Positions 33,047-40,610 of a stretch of 64,000 nt of DNA are shown piece by piece. The translations under genes and the position numbers were made by a program. The notes beneath the pieces were generated by a model. That model saw only the letters and a list, made by a program, of their open reading frames with translations, made no database searches and had not been told where the DNA came from. Every line of letters starts with the position of its first letter. Within the stretch, counting starts at the first letter, position 1. The DNA is from Fodinibius salipaludis. GTDB lineage: Bacteria; Bacteroidota; Rhodothermia; Balneolales; Balneolaceae. The stretch is from NCBI RefSeq assembly GCF_002287075.1, contig NZ_NSKE01000002.1:1-64000 (forward strand). The letters run 5' to 3'.

Positions 33047-33532
33047 TCAGCCCTCATCGGAACAGCTTTTTTTATAGGTCTCTATTGATTCAGGAAAGTG
33101 CTCGGTAACAAAAGCATAGAAATCATGCATCTCATTTAATCGATCAATATCTGTATCATCCTCAACCTTCAACTCCTCTTTATATTTTGCCGAAATATCT
33201 CGCAATTGCTTCATCTTTTCGAGATGACGCTCCATAACCTTACACCACGCATGGTCAACAAGCTTAAAACAGGTCTGCCGTTCACCCGGCTTACGCACTT
33301 TCTCAATAAATCCCGACTGTAAAAGTAAGCGTGTCATATTGCTTATGGAAGCCTTGCTAACATTCAGGTGCTCCACCAAATCACTAAATGATTGTGCTTC
33401 GGGCTCGCAAACATGCAACCAAGCCAACACCTGTCCACTTATTCGCGAATGGCCCTGTTCCTCAAAAATAAGGCTCGCCTCTTCTACAAATTCCTTTTTC
33501 TTTTTATAAATTTCTTCCTCAACCGCCTTCAT
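33047..33532 (-). CDS. GbsR/MarR-family transcriptional regulator
   Basis: The 161-residue protein has an N-terminal helix, a winged helix-turn-helix (about 30-100; ISGQVLAWLHVCEPEAQSFSDLVEHLNVSKASISNMTRLLLQSGFIE) and a C-terminal helical region, matching the GbsR-type subfamily. It is the last gene of the operon that begins at 40421, 34 bases after the phosphoesterase gene. GbsR-type proteins bind AT-rich inverted repeats, so the perfect palindrome at 40457-40500, just upstream of the operon, is its likely operator (autoregulation inferred). Confidence 0.85.
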   Translation of the reverse strand: MKAVEEEIYKKKKEFVEEASLIFEEQGHSRISGQVLAWLHVCEPEAQSFSDLVEHLNVSKASISNMTRLLLQSGFIEKVRKPGERQTCFKLVDHAWCKVMERHLEKMKQLRDISAKYKEELKVEDDTDIDRLNEMHDFYAFVTEHFPESIETYKKSCSDEG

Positions 33533-33566
33533 ATTGCTATCCCTATATTATTTATTTTTCTAATCG

Positions 33567-34706
33567 TTATTCTTTGGGTAAATCAGATAACTTCTGTTCA
33601 AATAACCGTGTACCGTCTTCATTCCAGAACTCAACCCAAATGCCCGTTTTGTAATAATGCACTACCGAAAATCCTCTTTGCTGAATACCAAAACCGGGCC
33701 GATCAGGGTTTTTAACAAAGCTGGTAACCGATACTGACCCGCTTACAATATAATATTGGTTACGTCGCTCATCCCCAAAAGTGAGGTACTGCAAATTGTG
33801 ATCATGTCCTGATGCGTAAATAATCGGTTCCCGCTCTGTAAAAACGGTGGTCAACTGATCTTTGAGCTTACTATACTTTCGCGAAGCAATATCCTGCGAA
33901 GTGCCCCAAATATTACGATACAAAACGTAAAGCGATCCCCCGACCGGAGGCAGCAGATGTGTTTTGAGCGGGAATTTCCCTCCGTTATTGCCATTCGAAT
34001 ACATGGGATGATGCCCCACTACCAGTACCTGATCGGCCTTCTCGTCGGTCACCGCCTCGCGCACCTGTTCAAAAGCCTGATCACTCGTAGCATTGAAGGC
34101 ACTATCGGTTTCGGCGCCCGGCTTGTTATAGGGATGTAGCCACCACTGTGTGTTCAACGCAACAATCGACAAATTTACCTCCTCATTACCTGCATTTACC
34201 ACGGCCGGGCCGGGTAATCCGTCATCAGGGAGAAATACATTCCCTCGATTTAGCGACTCCTCTATAAAGCATTCTTGTCGCTGTACATATTCTAATCCAT
34301 TCTCTCCACTCGAATTCCAATCATGATTTCCCGCTACAAATACCACTTTGCCCTCATAATCTTCTACCGTCTTGAACTGGGCCTGTAGATATTTCTCAGC
34401 TTTGGATCGGCTTTTGTGATTTTCGGGAGGTAATCCATCCGGATAAATGTTATCTCCCAAAAAGATCACAGCACTCTGTTCCCCGGCCTGATGCAGCTGT
34501 TTTTTTAATACCGATAAACTCGGCTCCAGCGGATCAAGCGACGCATACCCGGCATCCCCCGCCAAAAACACCGAATAAATTCGCTCGCTTTCATCCGGCT
34601 GACTACTATTTTCTACCACCGGAATTTCATCAGGCGACGGCCCCTTAGAAGAAACACATCCCGAAATAATCACTGGGATTAATAATATGGTCAATAACTT
34701 CTTCAT
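33567..34706 (-). CDS. Calcineurin-like metallophosphoesterase lipoprotein
   Basis: The 379-residue product has a lipobox (VIISGC, Cys17). The five metallophosphoesterase motifs are visible: D51 in LAGDAG, GDNIYP (84-89), GNHDW (126-130), VVGHHPMY and GHDHN. The overall layout resembles purple-acid-phosphatase-like exported enzymes. It should remove phosphate from an extracytoplasmic substrate. It follows the kinase-like lipoprotein gene by 11 bases, suggesting that it could be the opposing phosphatase of that protein (inferred). Confidence 0.85.
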   Translation of the reverse strand: MKKLLTILLIPVIISGCVSSKGPSPDEIPVVENSSQPDESERIYSVFLAGDAGYASLDPLEPSLSVLKKQLHQAGEQSAVIFLGDNIYPDGLPPENHKSRSKAEKYLQAQFKTVEDYEGKVVFVAGNHDWNSSGENGLEYVQRQECFIEESLNRGNVFLPDDGLPGPAVVNAGNEEVNLSIVALNTQWWLHPYNKPGAETDSAFNATSDQAFEQVREAVTDEKADQVLVVGHHPMYSNGNNGGKFPLKTHLLPPVGGSLYVLYRNIWGTSQDIASRKYSKLKDQLTTVFTEREPIIYASGHDHNLQYLTFGDERRNQYYIVSGSVSVTSFVKNPDRPGFGIQQRGFSVVHYYKTGIWVEFWNEDGTRLFEQKLSDLPKE

Positions 34707-34717
34707 CTATATCCTAT

Positions 34718-36403
34718 TTACTCTTCGCGCCGAACTCTCACCACTCGGCTGTTATTATCATTCACCTCAATGTATACCATTACCATTTTACCGGCGCCGG
34801 AATATTCACTGCCAATCGTTTTGATATCAAATCGCAGAACATCATTTAAAAGCTTTTCGTCTTGTAATTCTACAGATAATTGAGGCTCATTTATTTCTCG
34901 ATCTCCTGACAGAACCTTGCTTTCTGATTCAATTTCGACTCGATACTTATGATTTGAAGCCGATACCAATCCACTATTCACACTTAAATCCGTAAACGTT
35001 AGCAAAAGAGTCTTATTCTCAATTTCAGCATCAAATTTATCAAGCGGATTTATTTTTGCAAACCAATGGCGACCTATCTTATCCCGGCGCTCTATCAGGG
35101 TTCGAACGATGTATTCCTCTGCTTTGGGATTGGAATATTGCCCCGTTTCAACGATAGTACGAATATCTTCATCCGAAAAACTCATGACATGTTTGGCACC
35201 CCAAAACGCATCGCGAAGCGTCATATTCTCAAAGGGCGGCAGCGGATGCGTAGGAACCCATCGTCCCGGTTTAAAAACATCTGATCGAAAATAGCCCACT
35301 GAAGGATAGGGCACCTCGGGCTCAACCGTTTCCCACGGCGTAATATATCCGCCCAGCGAAACAGCCGACACCAACATATAACGCGGATCAATCAGGTAAG
35401 CCTGTCCCTGTATGGGTTTGTGACTCGACATACCGTTGGCACCCAGTGTATTCCCAAAATCCTGCACGTAATGACCAATGTAACCTTCATTGTTATAAAC
35501 CGCCATCGTGTTGGCATCACGCCGGTCGGTATCATTGAGCCAGGAACTAATCACCCGCATGCCGCGCAGCTCACGGCGATGTTCATGTGCCACCCGATCG
35601 TTTGGATCGCCTTTTAGCGTTCCTTCAAAATTCCAAGGTCCAAGGGGAACTCCATCTACAAATTTACTAGCCAGCGCTCGAACTTTCCCATCCGCATTCT
35701 GTGGACGATTTTTCACGATCTCCTGATAATCGGTCACCGTCATGGCACGTTTCTCCCCACCCTCTTCTACCGTAACACCTTCGGCAATAGTTACGTTACC
35801 GGGATCAAAATAAGTAATTTCGGATTCGGGAACGGTGTAGCCGGCTGCGTAGAAAACCTTCGTCCCGATTACTTCTGCAGCAGTCGTTAACTCAGGGTAA
35901 TCATAGCCATCAAACTTTATCAAGTAGCGGTTTCCATTTTCATCCTCTATAAAAAAACCGGAATTTGCTCCTTCAAGTTTCGCTTTAAAAATGGTCCACT
36001 CTCCCTTCGTATCGGGTGCCTTTGTATTAGGTCCGGCCGCCAACTCTTTCGGCGACATCTCATCGTAATAATGGCGATATGTGTACCAGCTCGATTCGGG
36101 AACCTCATCGAGCTTGTTAATATTATCGGCCTGACGTTTATCGCTTATTCCTAAACCTTGTCCCAACCAGCGTCCCGTTCGGTTCAGGTTCAACGGTTTT
36201 TCAAGCTGATGGAAAATAGTATTATCGATGCGATCCCAGTACTGGTATTGCGGCTTTTCTTCGGGCTTCTCGATGCGCGCCGTATCGGGATCAAACGTTT
36301 TTACAGGGCCCTTGGTATAAGGTTTTGTGGTTGAACAGCCCTGTAGAAAAACAATAGCTGACAGTACCGCAACCCCGATACTATGTATGTAATTAATCTT
36401 CAT
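34718..36403 (-). CDS. Lipoprotein with a protein-kinase-like (HipA/FAM20-like) core
   Basis: The 561-residue product is a lipoprotein (lipobox FLQGC, Cys23). The middle part has residues placed as in kinase folds. K163 in RYLIKFDGYDYPE is a candidate ATP-binding lysine, with E177 in a following helix. D293-x4-N298 in WLNDTDRRDANT matches the catalytic-loop Asp and Asn spacing, and D315-F-G in HYVQDFGNTLG matches the metal-binding DFG. The C-terminal 100 residues look beta-rich. I infer an extracytoplasmic kinase or pseudokinase; no named family is recognised. It lies between a barrel gene (6-base gap) and a phosphatase gene (11-base gap). Confidence 0.6.
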   Translation of the reverse strand: MKINYIHSIGVAVLSAIVFLQGCSTTKPYTKGPVKTFDPDTARIEKPEEKPQYQYWDRIDNTIFHQLEKPLNLNRTGRWLGQGLGISDKRQADNINKLDEVPESSWYTYRHYYDEMSPKELAAGPNTKAPDTKGEWTIFKAKLEGANSGFFIEDENGNRYLIKFDGYDYPELTTAAEVIGTKVFYAAGYTVPESEITYFDPGNVTIAEGVTVEEGGEKRAMTVTDYQEIVKNRPQNADGKVRALASKFVDGVPLGPWNFEGTLKGDPNDRVAHEHRRELRGMRVISSWLNDTDRRDANTMAVYNNEGYIGHYVQDFGNTLGANGMSSHKPIQGQAYLIDPRYMLVSAVSLGGYITPWETVEPEVPYPSVGYFRSDVFKPGRWVPTHPLPPFENMTLRDAFWGAKHVMSFSDEDIRTIVETGQYSNPKAEEYIVRTLIERRDKIGRHWFAKINPLDKFDAEIENKTLLLTFTDLSVNSGLVSASNHKYRVEIESESKVLSGDREINEPQLSVELQDEKLLNDVLRFDIKTIGSEYSGAGKMVMVYIEVNDNNSRVVRVRREE

Positions 36404-36409
36404 CGTACA

Positions 36410-37687
36410 CTAAAAGTTTGGCGTTATACTGATGATAAATCGTCCGCCCTCGTTGCTGAACGCAAATTCTGAACGAAAGGCCAATCCTTTTTGGGATAAC
36501 AGGTGAAAACCGAACCCATAAGAAGAACGGAAGGCGTCCAGCGAGATATCGCTATAGTCATTAAACGGTTGACCCTGATCGGCAAAAAGAACTATATCCA
36601 AAAAGTCCCAGATTGGATAGCGATATTCGGCCGTGAACAGTACAGTACCGTGAGCACGAAAACGGTTACTGGGAAAGCCACGAAGATTGCGACTCCCACC
36701 AAGCGAACGTAACTCATAAAAAGGAATATTGGTCGAACCAATATTCCTTTGTTTTTGTAACTCCATCTTAATACCCAGTCGGCGCGTTTCAGGCAAAATA
36801 GGGACCGGCACAAAGTGGTGGATGGCTCCCCGGTATTCTAAGTATTTCAAATTAGGATTGTTGGTTGACTGTGCCCACCCGACCCCCACCTTATATTGTG
36901 TGCCACTTAGGGTTCGCTTGCGTCCATTTTTGTAATTGAACGTCCAGTTGTTAGCCACTGAAAACAGCTTTGTATTTCCGAGCAATGACACAGGAACCTG
37001 TTCATTAATGTCATCCTCATACCGGCTCGTTTTGATGGTTCGATCCCAAAATCCTGTAGTAATTTGAGTATGTAACCAGCTATTTACCTGCTGATTGTAA
37101 TTAACCTGGATATTTCCAAATTCGCTGGCGTAACTTAGATCCTCACTCGTATTGTCTAAATAAAAAGAGCGCTCAGGAGCATTTTCGTACTCTCCCGCGA
37201 AGGTAAGACTGCTATTGGGAACTCCCTTAATGGGAATCTGGTATTGCAGATCAAATTCGTTATATACTTGCGAACCGAATAAAATTTCTGCCCGTGCCCG
37301 GTGATCCTCAAAAAAGAGGTGATCATGATACAAGAGCGCTCCCGCGGCAAAACCTTCTTCACCCCCTATTTCTATCAGCGGTAAAAATCCGTATGGTCCG
37401 CGTTCCCCCTCAAACCAGTGCGGAAATTTGTCTTCGGCATATTTTACCCCGTAGCCCACCGGACGGCTTACCCAATGCAACAGATACGATGGAGCGGCCA
37501 GAATATGGTAGCCAATGCTACGATCCGTTTCATAAGGCACTGTATTGGGATGTACGTGTTTTGCTTTCAAAGAGTCCGCGGATTGTGAAAAAACCATTGC
37601 CGGATACAGCATGCCCATAACAAGCAAAAGGACTATAATCCATAACTTGTTGTATGCAAAATCAGATATTTCGTTTTGAAATTGCAT
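36410..37687 (-). CDS. BamA/TamA-family outer-membrane beta-barrel protein
   Basis: The ATG at 37687 directly follows the stop of the upstream gene with one base between them and is the likely start; an open extension to 37822 is part of that upstream gene. The 425-residue product has a signal peptide (about 1-35, ending VFSQ) and then an all-beta barrel of the bacterial surface antigen type. The conserved loop RSLGGSRNLRGFPSNR and the final strand ending in Phe (ISITPNF) are present. There are no POTRA domains, so a general Bam role is unlikely. It may pass or anchor the lipoproteins encoded downstream. Confidence 0.8.
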   Translation of the reverse strand: MQFQNEISDFAYNKLWIIVLLLVMGMLYPAMVFSQSADSLKAKHVHPNTVPYETDRSIGYHILAAPSYLLHWVSRPVGYGVKYAEDKFPHWFEGERGPYGFLPLIEIGGEEGFAAGALLYHDHLFFEDHRARAEILFGSQVYNEFDLQYQIPIKGVPNSSLTFAGEYENAPERSFYLDNTSEDLSYASEFGNIQVNYNQQVNSWLHTQITTGFWDRTIKTSRYEDDINEQVPVSLLGNTKLFSVANNWTFNYKNGRKRTLSGTQYKVGVGWAQSTNNPNLKYLEYRGAIHHFVPVPILPETRRLGIKMELQKQRNIGSTNIPFYELRSLGGSRNLRGFPSNRFRAHGTVLFTAEYRYPIWDFLDIVLFADQGQPFNDYSDISLDAFRSSYGFGFHLLSQKGLAFRSEFAFSNEGGRFIISITPNF

Positions 37688-37688
37688 A

Positions 37689-40421
37689 CTATTCCCCAAC
37701 CTCAACATTTGCTTTCTGTGCCAGCTGGCGTTGCCGTTCTGTTTCTTGCTCATCCTCAAGGTTGGGAGCCAACTTTTCCTCAAGTTCTGCGTGGCAGATT
37801 CCTTTAAGGAAAAAGAGCACATCTTCGGTATCCGAAAGTGCGCTGGTAAAGCTATTAGGGGGTAAACGGTCGGTGTGATACGTTTCCAAAATTGGAATCA
37901 ACAGTTTCCGAACCTCCCAGTTAATAAGGTTTTCAATAAATTCAATTGCATCCGATCGTAATCGCGGATTGTCACCCACTATGGCTTTGTAAGCGTTATC
38001 AATATCCTCGATATCATTATTCAAGCTCAATAACCTGAATATATTTTCGAACGTTTGCTCGATCTCATACTCTAAAATCTCATCTGCTTCATCTGAAAGT
38101 TTAACCTTGCCACTCTGGTAAAACGTAAGGGCTTTTTTAAGTTTTGAATATCGGTCAATCTCTCGCTCAATATTTTGAGCAATCACTTCATCCGATACCC
38201 GAAATATCGGACGCTCTTTTCGCATTCGTAGCAATGCCTTGACAATACCATGCCGGATGGGAATGGAGCAGAACTTCAGACTCATCTTAAGGATTTCCCA
38301 AGAATCTTCACTCACAGTCTGAGAAAATAGCCATGGGATATACCGGCGCGTTGACACCGGTAAATGGGAATCAGTCATGTGATCATACATGGTTCCGTAT
38401 ATCCGACTACCGTACTCTCTTAGTGCCTTTTCTACTGCTTTGCGATAAATACCACTACCCATCAACAGCAGCAAGTCGTGCACAAATCGTCGATCCTGTG
38501 TTTTAGCCGTACTTTCAATCGCTTGCTTAACCACGGAGGGATTTTCATCATTAAGTAACTCCTTTAACAGGTGCGCATAACGATTTTCATACATTTCCCC
38601 CAACAACTTTGCCGATTGTTTGCGAAGTTCATGTCCATATTCTCCATAAAAATGTACGGCCTCATCTAATAATTTATCTGTTATCAGCTTCTTCTCTTCT
38701 TCAATCCCTTCTTCAGCAATAAGAGCCATCGCTACCGCCTGTACCCGAGCATCGTCGTGATGTAAGCCTACAGTAAGTTTTTCCCGGCGATCTCCTTCAT
38801 AAAACTGATAGACATATCGGATGGCTTCCATACGCACATCGGCATCTTCATCATAGGCTAAATCCATCACCTCATCCACCCAGTCACCAAGCTCACGTTT
38901 CCGTAATAGTCGTACGATATTAATGCGAACTTTACAGCTTGAATGCTTTAGATTTCTGATGAGTAAGTTAGAATCTACATCAAAATCTTTTTCTCGCATT
39001 ACATTCAAAGCCCAAAGTACATCTGATTCCTCATCGCTCTTTAACAGCTTCTGTATACTCTCTTCATTGGCCTCCTCAAACCGGCTACTATTTTCAGTAC
39101 TTTTATCCCAATCGCCTTTCATTTTCCGTTTCAACGTATTACGGAAAACATCCACATACGAGTTTCCCGCCATCTTTGCGATTACTACCCAGGCAACAAG
39201 TAACGTAATCACCACAACGGATATCTCCTGCACATCGAGATTTAATCCAAATGTCAATCCGAGCAGTAACAATCCCGTAAGTCCCTGGGCTCCGTGATCC
39301 ACAAAAAGATCAATAAATACCTTAACCCGATTTTTTAACTCTTCCGGAAGTGGTACGAAAAGTAATTCGCGTCCGGTACGATCAATAGAGTGTTTGAGCG
39401 TTTGGTCAATACCGCGACTGATGGTACCGGCCACCAATCCCGGGATAAGTAGCATTCCACCAGCACTTATCAACAATGCAAGAGGTAACAATAGTAACGC
39501 ACCGGATACCCCATACTTTTTAGTAAAAATAGTCCCGATAAAAAGCTGAATAATCAGTGCTATCAGACTGACGCGACCATAAAATCTCCCCATAAAGCTG
39601 GTTAATCCAGCTTCGGTTGTATAGGCAGCCTCAGCCACTGTCTTAAACTGATAGTCAATGAGCGTTGTGACCATTACAGTAACTGCGATAAGGGCTGTGA
39701 TTAAAAGCAGATGGTTGTGAGACAAAATCTCTTTTAACGGATTCGAAGGAATGGCTTGATCCGCTTTTCTATACTCCTTTTTGTCTACCGATGATAAATT
39801 CGACTTGCCATTCTTTCTTAGAATTAACCACACCAGCGGAGCTGTTGCTGCGATAATTATTGCTGATATCAACAGCAGAGATTCGGGCTGTAACGAAAGC
39901 TGATTTACAAATATAGCAGTAAGCTCTCCGCCAGAAACACCACCCGCAATTGCTCCAAGGCTTAAAAACCCAAATATCTTTTTCGACTGTACCGAATTAA
40001 ATATCGTGTTGGCAAACAACCAGAACTGTGAAGTAATCAATACACTGTAAATGCTGACCCAAACATAAAATCCGTAGTACAGCCAGACTTTATTCATTTC
40101 TATAAAGAACCAGATCACAAACAGATTGGCTGCCAGAAAGAGCGTTATGGCTGAAACCACCCATCCCACAGAGTGGCGTTTAGAAAGCTTGGAGTACCCA
40201 ATAGATATCGGGATAACAGCAATAGCCGTCAAAATAAAGACAAACGGCAAATTATAGGCTCCAACCTGCTCCAGAAACAAGCTATCGCGTACCGGCTTTA
40301 GCAAGTACAGCGTATTAAGCAGCACGAAATTATACGCAAACATCAAAAAAGCCTGCGTTTTTATTTCAGGTTCGAGCGTAAAAAGGGCCCTAAAATCTTT
40401 CCCAACGTTTCTGATATCCAT
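37689..40421 (-). CDS. ATP/ADP-translocase-like (Npt/NTT family) transporter fused to HEAT repeats
   Basis: The 910-residue protein starts with about 11-12 membrane helices (20 to about 425). Segments such as NTLYLLKPVRDSLFLEQVG (36-54) and SRGIDQTLKHSIDRTGRELLFVPLPEELKNR are the hallmarks of the NTT nucleotide transporter family known from rickettsiae, chlamydiae and plastids. Residues about 440-900 are cytoplasmic helical HEAT-type repeats (for example SCKVRINIVRLLRKRELGDW, DADVRMEAIRYV). It heads a five-gene operon. The substrate is unproven; nucleotide movement across the inner membrane is inferred from the family. Confidence 0.8.
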   Translation of the reverse strand: MDIRNVGKDFRALFTLEPEIKTQAFLMFAYNFVLLNTLYLLKPVRDSLFLEQVGAYNLPFVFILTAIAVIPISIGYSKLSKRHSVGWVVSAITLFLAANLFVIWFFIEMNKVWLYYGFYVWVSIYSVLITSQFWLFANTIFNSVQSKKIFGFLSLGAIAGGVSGGELTAIFVNQLSLQPESLLLISAIIIAATAPLVWLILRKNGKSNLSSVDKKEYRKADQAIPSNPLKEILSHNHLLLITALIAVTVMVTTLIDYQFKTVAEAAYTTEAGLTSFMGRFYGRVSLIALIIQLFIGTIFTKKYGVSGALLLLPLALLISAGGMLLIPGLVAGTISRGIDQTLKHSIDRTGRELLFVPLPEELKNRVKVFIDLFVDHGAQGLTGLLLLGLTFGLNLDVQEISVVVITLLVAWVVIAKMAGNSYVDVFRNTLKRKMKGDWDKSTENSSRFEEANEESIQKLLKSDEESDVLWALNVMREKDFDVDSNLLIRNLKHSSCKVRINIVRLLRKRELGDWVDEVMDLAYDEDADVRMEAIRYVYQFYEGDRREKLTVGLHHDDARVQAVAMALIAEEGIEEEKKLITDKLLDEAVHFYGEYGHELRKQSAKLLGEMYENRYAHLLKELLNDENPSVVKQAIESTAKTQDRRFVHDLLLLMGSGIYRKAVEKALREYGSRIYGTMYDHMTDSHLPVSTRRYIPWLFSQTVSEDSWEILKMSLKFCSIPIRHGIVKALLRMRKERPIFRVSDEVIAQNIEREIDRYSKLKKALTFYQSGKVKLSDEADEILEYEIEQTFENIFRLLSLNNDIEDIDNAYKAIVGDNPRLRSDAIEFIENLINWEVRKLLIPILETYHTDRLPPNSFTSALSDTEDVLFFLKGICHAELEEKLAPNLEDEQETERQRQLAQKANVEVGE

Positions 40422-40456
40422 ATCAAATTTTGTACCTCTTATTTTATAGAGCCCAA

Positions 40457-40500
40457 AACTATTAACTTTGTTTATAAATTACTAAACAAAGTTAATAGTT
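40457..40500. promoter_or_regulatory. Perfect 18-bp inverted repeat, probable operator of the five-gene operon
   Basis: AACTATTAACTTTGTTTA (40457-40474) is repeated as its exact complement at 40483-40500, with an 8-base centre. It lies 36 bases upstream of the 40421 start. The inner part (TTTGTTTA, 8 bases, TAAACAAA) resembles GbsR/MarR-type operators, and the operon ends with a GbsR-type gene. Confidence 0.7.
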
Positions 40501-40536: not shown

Positions 40537-40571
40537 AAAAAAGGCTCCACCTAAGAGTATTAGATGGAGCC
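40537..40571 (-). terminator. Rho-independent terminator after the CoA-transferase gene
   Basis: On the minus strand GGCTCCA (complement of 40565-40571) pairs with TGGAGCC (complement of 40543-40549), with further pairing inside (CTAA/TTAG). It is followed by a run of six T (complement of 40537-40542). It ends the 40611-41894 transcript. Confidence 0.9.
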
Positions 40572-40610
40572 CAGCTTTAATGTATTACCTAATTTTCTAA
40601 AAAAGGGATA

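Follow-up and report, generated by a model that had tools for sequence, protein, structure and literature searches.

A nucleotide carrier of the NTT type, an Omp85-type barrel and a lipoprotein with kinase-like residues, referred to below as NTT, OMP and KIN, are the conserved core of a gene neighborhood found in Fodinibius salipaludis and its relatives. NTT accompanies KIN proteins with intact kinase residues and is missing in a single clade in which these residues are lost. The three proteins are very probably functionally linked. Specifically, we favor, with a probability of roughly 0.5, the reading in which the carrier provides an envelope kinase with ATP, so that the operon would be an envelope phosphorylation module.

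The window, that is, the whole stretch of DNA that was analyzed, spans 64,000 nucleotides (positions 1 to 64,000 of contig NZ_NSKE01000002.1, assembly GCF_002287075.1; genome size, 3.58 Mb). Fodinibius and Aliifodinibius records are among the relatives of this genome; the f12 genomes we take to be probably Salinibacter and its kin. An earlier note on this DNA had described five minus-strand genes separated by gaps of 1, 6, 11 and 34 bases, and the open reading frames reproduce this layout exactly. The features are as follows.

33047..33532, minus strand: GbsR/MarR-type winged-helix regulator (Pfam MarR)
33567..34706, minus strand: MPE, metallophosphoesterase lipoprotein (Pfam, metal-binding motifs)
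34718..36403, minus strand: KIN, lipoprotein whose kinase core resembles HipA/FAM20 and whose C-terminal domain is FN3-like (motifs, low-confidence models)
36410..37687, minus strand: OMP, Omp85 barrel of 425 amino acids (aa) with no POTRA match (Pfam, loci compared)
37689..40421, minus strand: NTT, TLC-family nucleotide carrier with C-terminal HEAT repeats, 910 aa (Pfam)
40457..40500, no strand: candidate operator, an 18-bp perfect inverted repeat with an 8-bp center, some 35 bp upstream of the NTT start
40542..40572, minus strand: terminator-like stem-loop downstream of the acetyl-CoA hydrolase/transferase gene that precedes the operon (consensus match)

The order upstream of NTT is thus an acetyl-CoA hydrolase/transferase gene, the terminator-like match, the palindrome and NTT; terminator-like consensus matches in the region number 9 against 7.2 expected by chance, which is not above chance. 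The ATG of OMP lies one base past the NTT stop codon, and a further, earlier ATG of the OMP frame lies within NTT. Identity as a defense system was considered and rejected, the PADLOC matches being weak and confined to the regulator and the HEAT repeats.

The fusion of an NTT-type carrier to HEAT repeats was recovered by Pfam matches to TLC (3e-16) and HEAT_2 (1.6e-15); with 59.7 bits against a curated cutoff of 21 for TLC, the protein is by profile a carrier of the TLC/NTT type. A profile of NTT (A3) matched the solved ADP,ATP carriers 9j3n (4e-15) and 9j3j (4e-14), and NTT has 12 hydrophobic peaks, overlapping in part. The charged, putatively transport-related residues R45-D46, D256, K260 and R351-E352 are invariant in alignment A3 and align by eye with charges of 9j3j; one glutamate of the carrier aligns to Ser123, and the alignment of the R45-D46 stretch to the solved carriers is below significance. 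The partner gene, previously read as a BamA/TamA-type barrel without POTRA domains, encodes a protein whose sole Pfam match is Omp85 (5.9e-13; 49.5 bits against a cutoff of 24 for this superfamily profile), and since there is no other Pfam match, the search found no POTRA domain in OMP.

The lipoprotein carries the kinase-like residues where they had been described, namely, K163, D293-x4-N298 and D315-F-G317. K163, D293, N298 and D315 are invariant in a 16-row alignment, in the places of the catalytic lysine, the catalytic-loop aspartate and asparagine and the metal-binding aspartate, respectively. A lipobox cysteine is recognizable by eye (LQGC); the kinase core covers approximately residues 128 to 450, and the FN3-like C-terminal domain approximately residues 455 to 550. 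In Pfam, the HipA_C match in KIN is below threshold (E value, 0.25; 11.4 bits against a cutoff of 30.5), and a KIN profile gave no match below an E value of 0.99 against the PDB. In NCBIfam, neither LsoB_effector (20.3 bits against a cutoff of 60; residues 11 to 31, covering the signal peptide only) nor FlxJ (10.5 bits against a cutoff of 560) was matched. KIN has no curated-profile match and is therefore not filed in either the HipA/CtkA or the FAM20 family.

AlphaFold was run twice on 16 sequences, once for whole KIN (mean pLDDT, 59.4; pTM, 0.49) and once for the KIN core (mean pLDDT, 58.4; pTM, 0.67), both models being of low confidence. The modeled secondary structure follows kinase order: strands, the strand with K163, the helix with E177, the hinge, a helix, the catalytic loop and the DxG strand. 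For the whole-KIN model, the best structural rows were CtkA (Z score, 10.4 over 209 residues) and FAM20 (9.7 over 229), and residues 455 to 550 matched FN3-type domains in the structural alignment of this low-confidence model. For the equally uncertain core model, kinases made up all of the best 50 structural rows, led by CtkA (Z score, 8.0) and FAM20A (7.4) and followed by FAM20C, PI4K-II-alpha, HipA and HipT, although Z scores near 8 can be ordinary according to the tool's own note. Foldseek gave no match at an E value of ≤0.001 with either model. The comparison with HipA and FAM20 structures that the earlier note had called for thus supports a kinase fold in low-confidence models, and on these predictions KIN is quite probably a kinase-fold protein; the claim is made because the match list is consistent, not because of any single Z score.

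The fourth gene was correctly read as a metallophosphoesterase lipoprotein: MPE matches Pfam Metallophos (1.9e-8; 35.4 bits against a cutoff of 21.5), has the lipobox ISGC by eye and carries the metal motifs GDxG, GDxxY, GNHD, HH and GHxH, presumably a set of the purple acid phosphatase type. The reading of the fifth gene as a GbsR-type regulator stands in part. A MarR winged helix is matched (1.1e-7; 32.1 bits against a cutoff of 24.6), but the GbsR label is unconfirmed by profile, NCBIfam CudC scoring 18.9 bits against a cutoff of 218, and is kept here as the earlier label and our own assumption.

The palindrome before NTT is kept in the two regulator-carrying relatives, genomes G002 and G008, with arms of 16 and 15 bp and differing flanks, and precedes 3/3 operons that include the regulator gene; the whole genome contains a single exact copy of its inner 30-bp pattern. 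A shorter, imperfect variant lies before the OMP of a second operon in G008, where the regulator gene is about 0.5 kb upstream of that OMP. The palindrome sequence does not occur in the 220-bp stretch preceding the first gene in 8 other loci, nor before OMP in locus L078, where a contig end cuts NTT; an imperfect repeat in locus L019 is unrelated to it. Palindrome and regulator fit a local, self-contained switch, with the palindrome as the candidate operator. When each palindrome arm (40457 to 40500) is read on its own strand from the outer end toward the center, it includes TAACTTTG, a sequence that we take to resemble a Bacteroidota-type -7 promoter element; the candidate operator may therefore overlap a promoter.

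KIN was found in 41/244 Rhodothermia genomes by a class-wide search and in 7/296 genomes of a phylum-wide sample, all 7 within Rhodothermia; outside the class, named matches came from KSB1 and Calditrichota. Comparison of two KINs with plasmids by tblastn gave no match. The 54 KIN loci compared comprise 40 intact copies (K163, D293 and N298 kept where readable), 12 degenerate copies (all three lost) and 2 fragments that could not be scored; among the intact copies, the fragmentary one in genome G013 was counted from K163 alone, and the KIN of genome G356 was read from two pieces. Intact copies vary at other positions: E177D in L012, E177A and R295K in L105, R295K and G317A in one copy of L031, D315E in L101, and G317S or G317T in L091, L092, L101 and L103. 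In all 52 scorable loci (40/40 intact and 12/12 degenerate), the gene immediately upstream of KIN is OMP; negative OMP-KIN gaps in the loci table are an artifact of open reading frames counted from the first start codon.

The earlier note had named two outcomes that would refute its reading, a neighborhood not conserved in relatives and a predicted lipoprotein structure without a kinase fold; neither came about, the second being judged on low-confidence models. What recurs is the set of NTT, OMP and KIN, across numerous genomes and beyond a single phylum, and therefore more than by chance; among the loci compared, all five families occur together in only three genomes (G000, G002 and G008), all from a single genus, so MPE and the regulator are accessories rather than core. 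The five genes as an obligate unit were accordingly rejected: MPE is near just 7/40 intact KIN loci (in one case on the opposite strand 4 kb away and in another belonging to an interrupted fusion), and regulator genes go with just 4 operons, spread over 3 genomes. The placement of NTT varies among KIN loci, upstream or downstream, short or HEAT fused, including in KSB1 (L031 and L034). The pairing of NTT and KIN therefore survives rearrangement.

The KIN-OMP gene pair occurs in some salt-loving and other bacteria, usually adjoined by an ATP/ADP-type carrier gene, and several loci show arrangements of their own. In G008 (L013:15625-19901, L014:1-8033), the second OMP-KIN operon lies about 9 kb from the first and has its own regulator and a broken short NTT, with an additional NTT-HEAT and MPE on the opposite strand. 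In KSB1, L031:3702-13143 contains three successive Omp85-like genes (the first weak, at 30 bits), two KIN genes as well as a short NTT, so that the OMP-KIN pair seems to have been expanded in tandem. In G356 (L094:9151-10855, G356:C18:136212-137211), KIN is split by a frameshift and a neighboring phosphatase-kinase-Omp85 fusion is interrupted by TAG, a picture that would fit decay or misassembly of the entire locus.

The association of the carrier with kinase residues was examined at the level of loci, genomes and the tree. When the comparison is restricted to KINs flanked by 4 kb or more on each side, an NTT is present within 6 kb of 27/28 intact KINs versus 0/11 degenerate ones, Fisher comparisons of this kind treating related copies as independent. 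One of the 27, the second operon of G008, was counted via its broken short NTT and the opposite-strand NTT-HEAT 5.6 kb off; the single exception, G021, has its NTT elsewhere in the genome. Adding shorter contigs on which NTT was found gives NTT near 32/33 intact KINs, a count that omits seven intact loci near contig ends with no NTT seen, among them L101 of G399 with at least 3.2 kb on both sides without NTT. Per genome, NTT is present in 30/33 genomes with intact KIN, 0/6 with degenerate KIN only (four of these being at least 93% complete), 0/2 with KIN fragments and 10/203 without KIN. Three genomes in which intact KIN but no NTT was found, G348, G399 and G423, are 91, 77 and 56% complete, respectively. 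In each of six genomes (G233, G237, G433, G415, G417 and G418), an intact KIN has NTT alongside and a second, degenerate KIN lacks it, the degenerate KIN of G418 being on a 4-kb contig.

The degenerate KINs form one clade (12 rows; SH-aLRT, 100), so the loss of the residues and the loss of NTT coincide once, as one evolutionary event; counted on the tree, the residues change once and NTT adjacency twice, giving one independent pair. Degenerate copies also differ from intact ones in other respects, and a lipobox is found in 0/12 of them. Of the intact KINs in the larger clade that holds the degenerate ones (n = 6), 4 lack a lipobox and 2 are doubtful; lipid anchoring is therefore a trait of the other KIN clade, which includes the window KIN. 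The lipobox count among intact copies (28/40) is too low because the search term missed the LQGC type, for example, in the window KIN.

In the proposed mechanism, NTT would exchange cytoplasmic ATP for the ADP left by KIN in the periplasm, the ADP returning via the same carrier. The bacterial periplasm is generally held to be without an ATP source, and such an exchange could therefore support phosphorylation in a compartment that has none of its own. Its lipid and the OMP barrel would hold KIN at the outer membrane, where it would phosphorylate a component of the envelope. This substrate may be the barrel itself, cargo in transit through the barrel, or a glycan or lipid of the envelope; the first two are the most straightforward candidates, since OMP and KIN were always found as a pair. 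Where present, MPE may reverse the phosphorylation of the substrate or recycle or dephosphorylate nucleotide, and the GbsR-type protein may switch the operon. The specific step, ATP export by NTT that feeds KIN, we regard as evenly poised; if the transport inference fails, the module would be a new variant of an Omp85-lipoprotein pair.

The direction of transport is what a scavenging reading, in our view unlikely, would reverse: the barrel would admit extracellular nucleotides, MPE would trim them and NTT would import them, while KIN would be a periplasmic kinase that handles nucleotides or nucleosides, or else a scaffold that binds ATP. Purple acid phosphatases include nucleotide hydrolases, in line with the motif set of MPE, and NTT is found away from KIN too. 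The NTTs characterized so far are also mainly importers, serving parasites and plastids, in the passages devoted to them by Major et al. 2017 (PMC5381601). Yet the residue-loss clade keeps the barrel and loses NTT, the opposite of a barrel-NTT uptake pair, and the scarcity of MPE at intact loci likewise argues against this reading.

Another reading changes the chemistry: NTT would supply a cofactor other than ATP (SAM, NAD or some further nucleotide, for example) to a kinase-fold enzyme that catalyzes, for example, AMP transfer. We consider this improbable. Kinase-fold enzymes with non-kinase chemistry exist, and SidJ appears at rank 29 (E value, 0.76) in the structure search with the KIN core. 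Relatives of NTT with other cargo, a SAM carrier of Amoebophilus and NAD transport by Npt1, are named in titles that PMC5381601 cites; however, the solved carriers matched by the NTT profile are ADP,ATP carriers, and KIN keeps the K, D-x4-N and DxG set of phosphotransferring kinases. Finally, OMP and KIN are hardly likely to be an outer membrane biogenesis accessory that assembles or exports envelope material, with KIN structural and NTT a hitchhiker through operon inheritance: the pair does persist without kinase residues (12/12), the degenerate state is a single clade and a role in membrane protein biogenesis is suggested for POTRA-less Omp85s in a passage of PMC4104836, but hitchhiking predicts neither the varied position and type of NTT (HEAT fused or not) nor its strong genome-wide co-occurrence with intact KIN.

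In some relatives, a single chain next to NTT combines a phosphatase, a kinase-like region and a barrel. In four genomes (L121, L122, L124 and L026/L081), NTT lies beside a protein of about 1,170 to 1,260 aa with Metallophos near the N terminus and Omp85 at the C terminus; its middle region contains K, GDWDRH and DRDN motifs (GDWDRH...DRDNAF) in kinase order and is, in our reading of the sequence, kinase-like. An NTT-adjacent fusion without the phosphoesterase is present in G336 (L115). When KIN was compared with the fused region by hhalign, a short C-terminal match was obtained (probability, 1%; E value, 0.054 to 0.055), which with more rows reached E values of 0.0006 to 0.0025 and probabilities of 12 to 28%, which is no more than suggestive of homology between the two. 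The fusion family occurs in 67/244 genomes, and the K/D residues are kept in the 30 loci examined. No NTT was found in 49 of these 67 genomes, so not every kinase-like Omp85 partner needs NTT, and the notion that any kinase-like Omp85 depends on the carrier is weakened, fused relatives keeping their residues without it. Of the 18 genomes with both, 6 have fusion and NTT as neighbors and 12 have them on different contigs; a large share of these assemblies is fragmented.

Other genes also adjoin NTT-HEAT. A gene for a 143-aa protein directly follows it in L026:13639-14067, L121:12726-13157 and L124:10951-11382; the L026 protein matches Pfam cNMP_binding (6e-12), and those of L121 and L124 are similar by eye. 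In L113:8598-15718 (G005) and L114:8114-15202 (G021), NTT-HEAT lies beside a protein of 970 to 973 aa with a PPDK/PEP-synthase ATP-binding domain (Pfam, 1e-24) and, by eye, a signal-peptide-like start, together with two beta-lactamase-family proteins. Strong homologs of this PEP-synthase-like protein (E value below 1e-100) occur in 10 genomes: NTT is adjacent in G005 and G021 only, about 350 kb away in G221 and on different contigs in G237 and G449, and 5 have no NTT found. The exported protein as an NTT partner is thus a weakened candidate.

A wider generalization is more tentative, namely, that free-living bacteria run periplasmic ATP-dependent phosphorylation by means of ATP export through NTTs, with NTT-OMP-KIN, the NTT-linked fusions and maybe the PEP-synthase-like protein as versions. 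If true, periplasmic ATP export would explain why "parasite-type" ATP carriers are found in many free-living bacteria. The module makes periplasmic ATP and the role of NTT-HEAT in free-living bacteria testable in culturable halophiles such as Fodinibius.

Several known systems resemble parts of the module, and no description of the NTT-OMP-KIN set or of the five-gene set was found in searches of open-license PMC papers. NTT-HEAT carriers with the same domains as the window NTT are treated in PMC5381601, in whose passages on them the function of the fusion is stated as unknown, a neighboring cNBD gene resembles the 143-aa gene of some loci here and neither a kinase-like lipoprotein nor an Omp85 partner is mentioned; the word "periplasm" is absent from its main text. 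POTRA-less barrels like OMP were described as the Omp85 subgroup "noNterm" in the part of Heinz and Lithgow 2014 (PMC4104836) concerned with such subgroups, and the "Metallo" group of the same source, to judge from its name, looks like the long MPE-Omp85 fusions beside NTTs; "kinase" is absent from its main text, and the kinase-like region and the NTT link are added here. The atypical kinases CtkA/HipA and FAM20 share with KIN the core fold (in a low-confidence model) and the K, D-x4-N and DxG layout, whereas KIN differs from them in having no accepted profile match and in being a lipoprotein with an FN3-like tail and an Omp85 barrel partner. HipA is a cytoplasmic enzyme, and FAM20 works in the secretory pathway of animals. 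The parts of the system are known with the exception of the kinase-like family, which has no accepted profile. The closest likeness in principle is AXER/SLC35B1 of the endoplasmic reticulum, which brings ATP into a compartment unable to make it (PMC6113206, PMC12267056), although it is eukaryotic and belongs to the nucleotide sugar transporter family rather than to the NTTs. If the proposed ATP supply is real, the module would parallel, in bacteria, the secretory pathway of eukaryotes, whose lumenal enzymes receive their ATP through a carrier.
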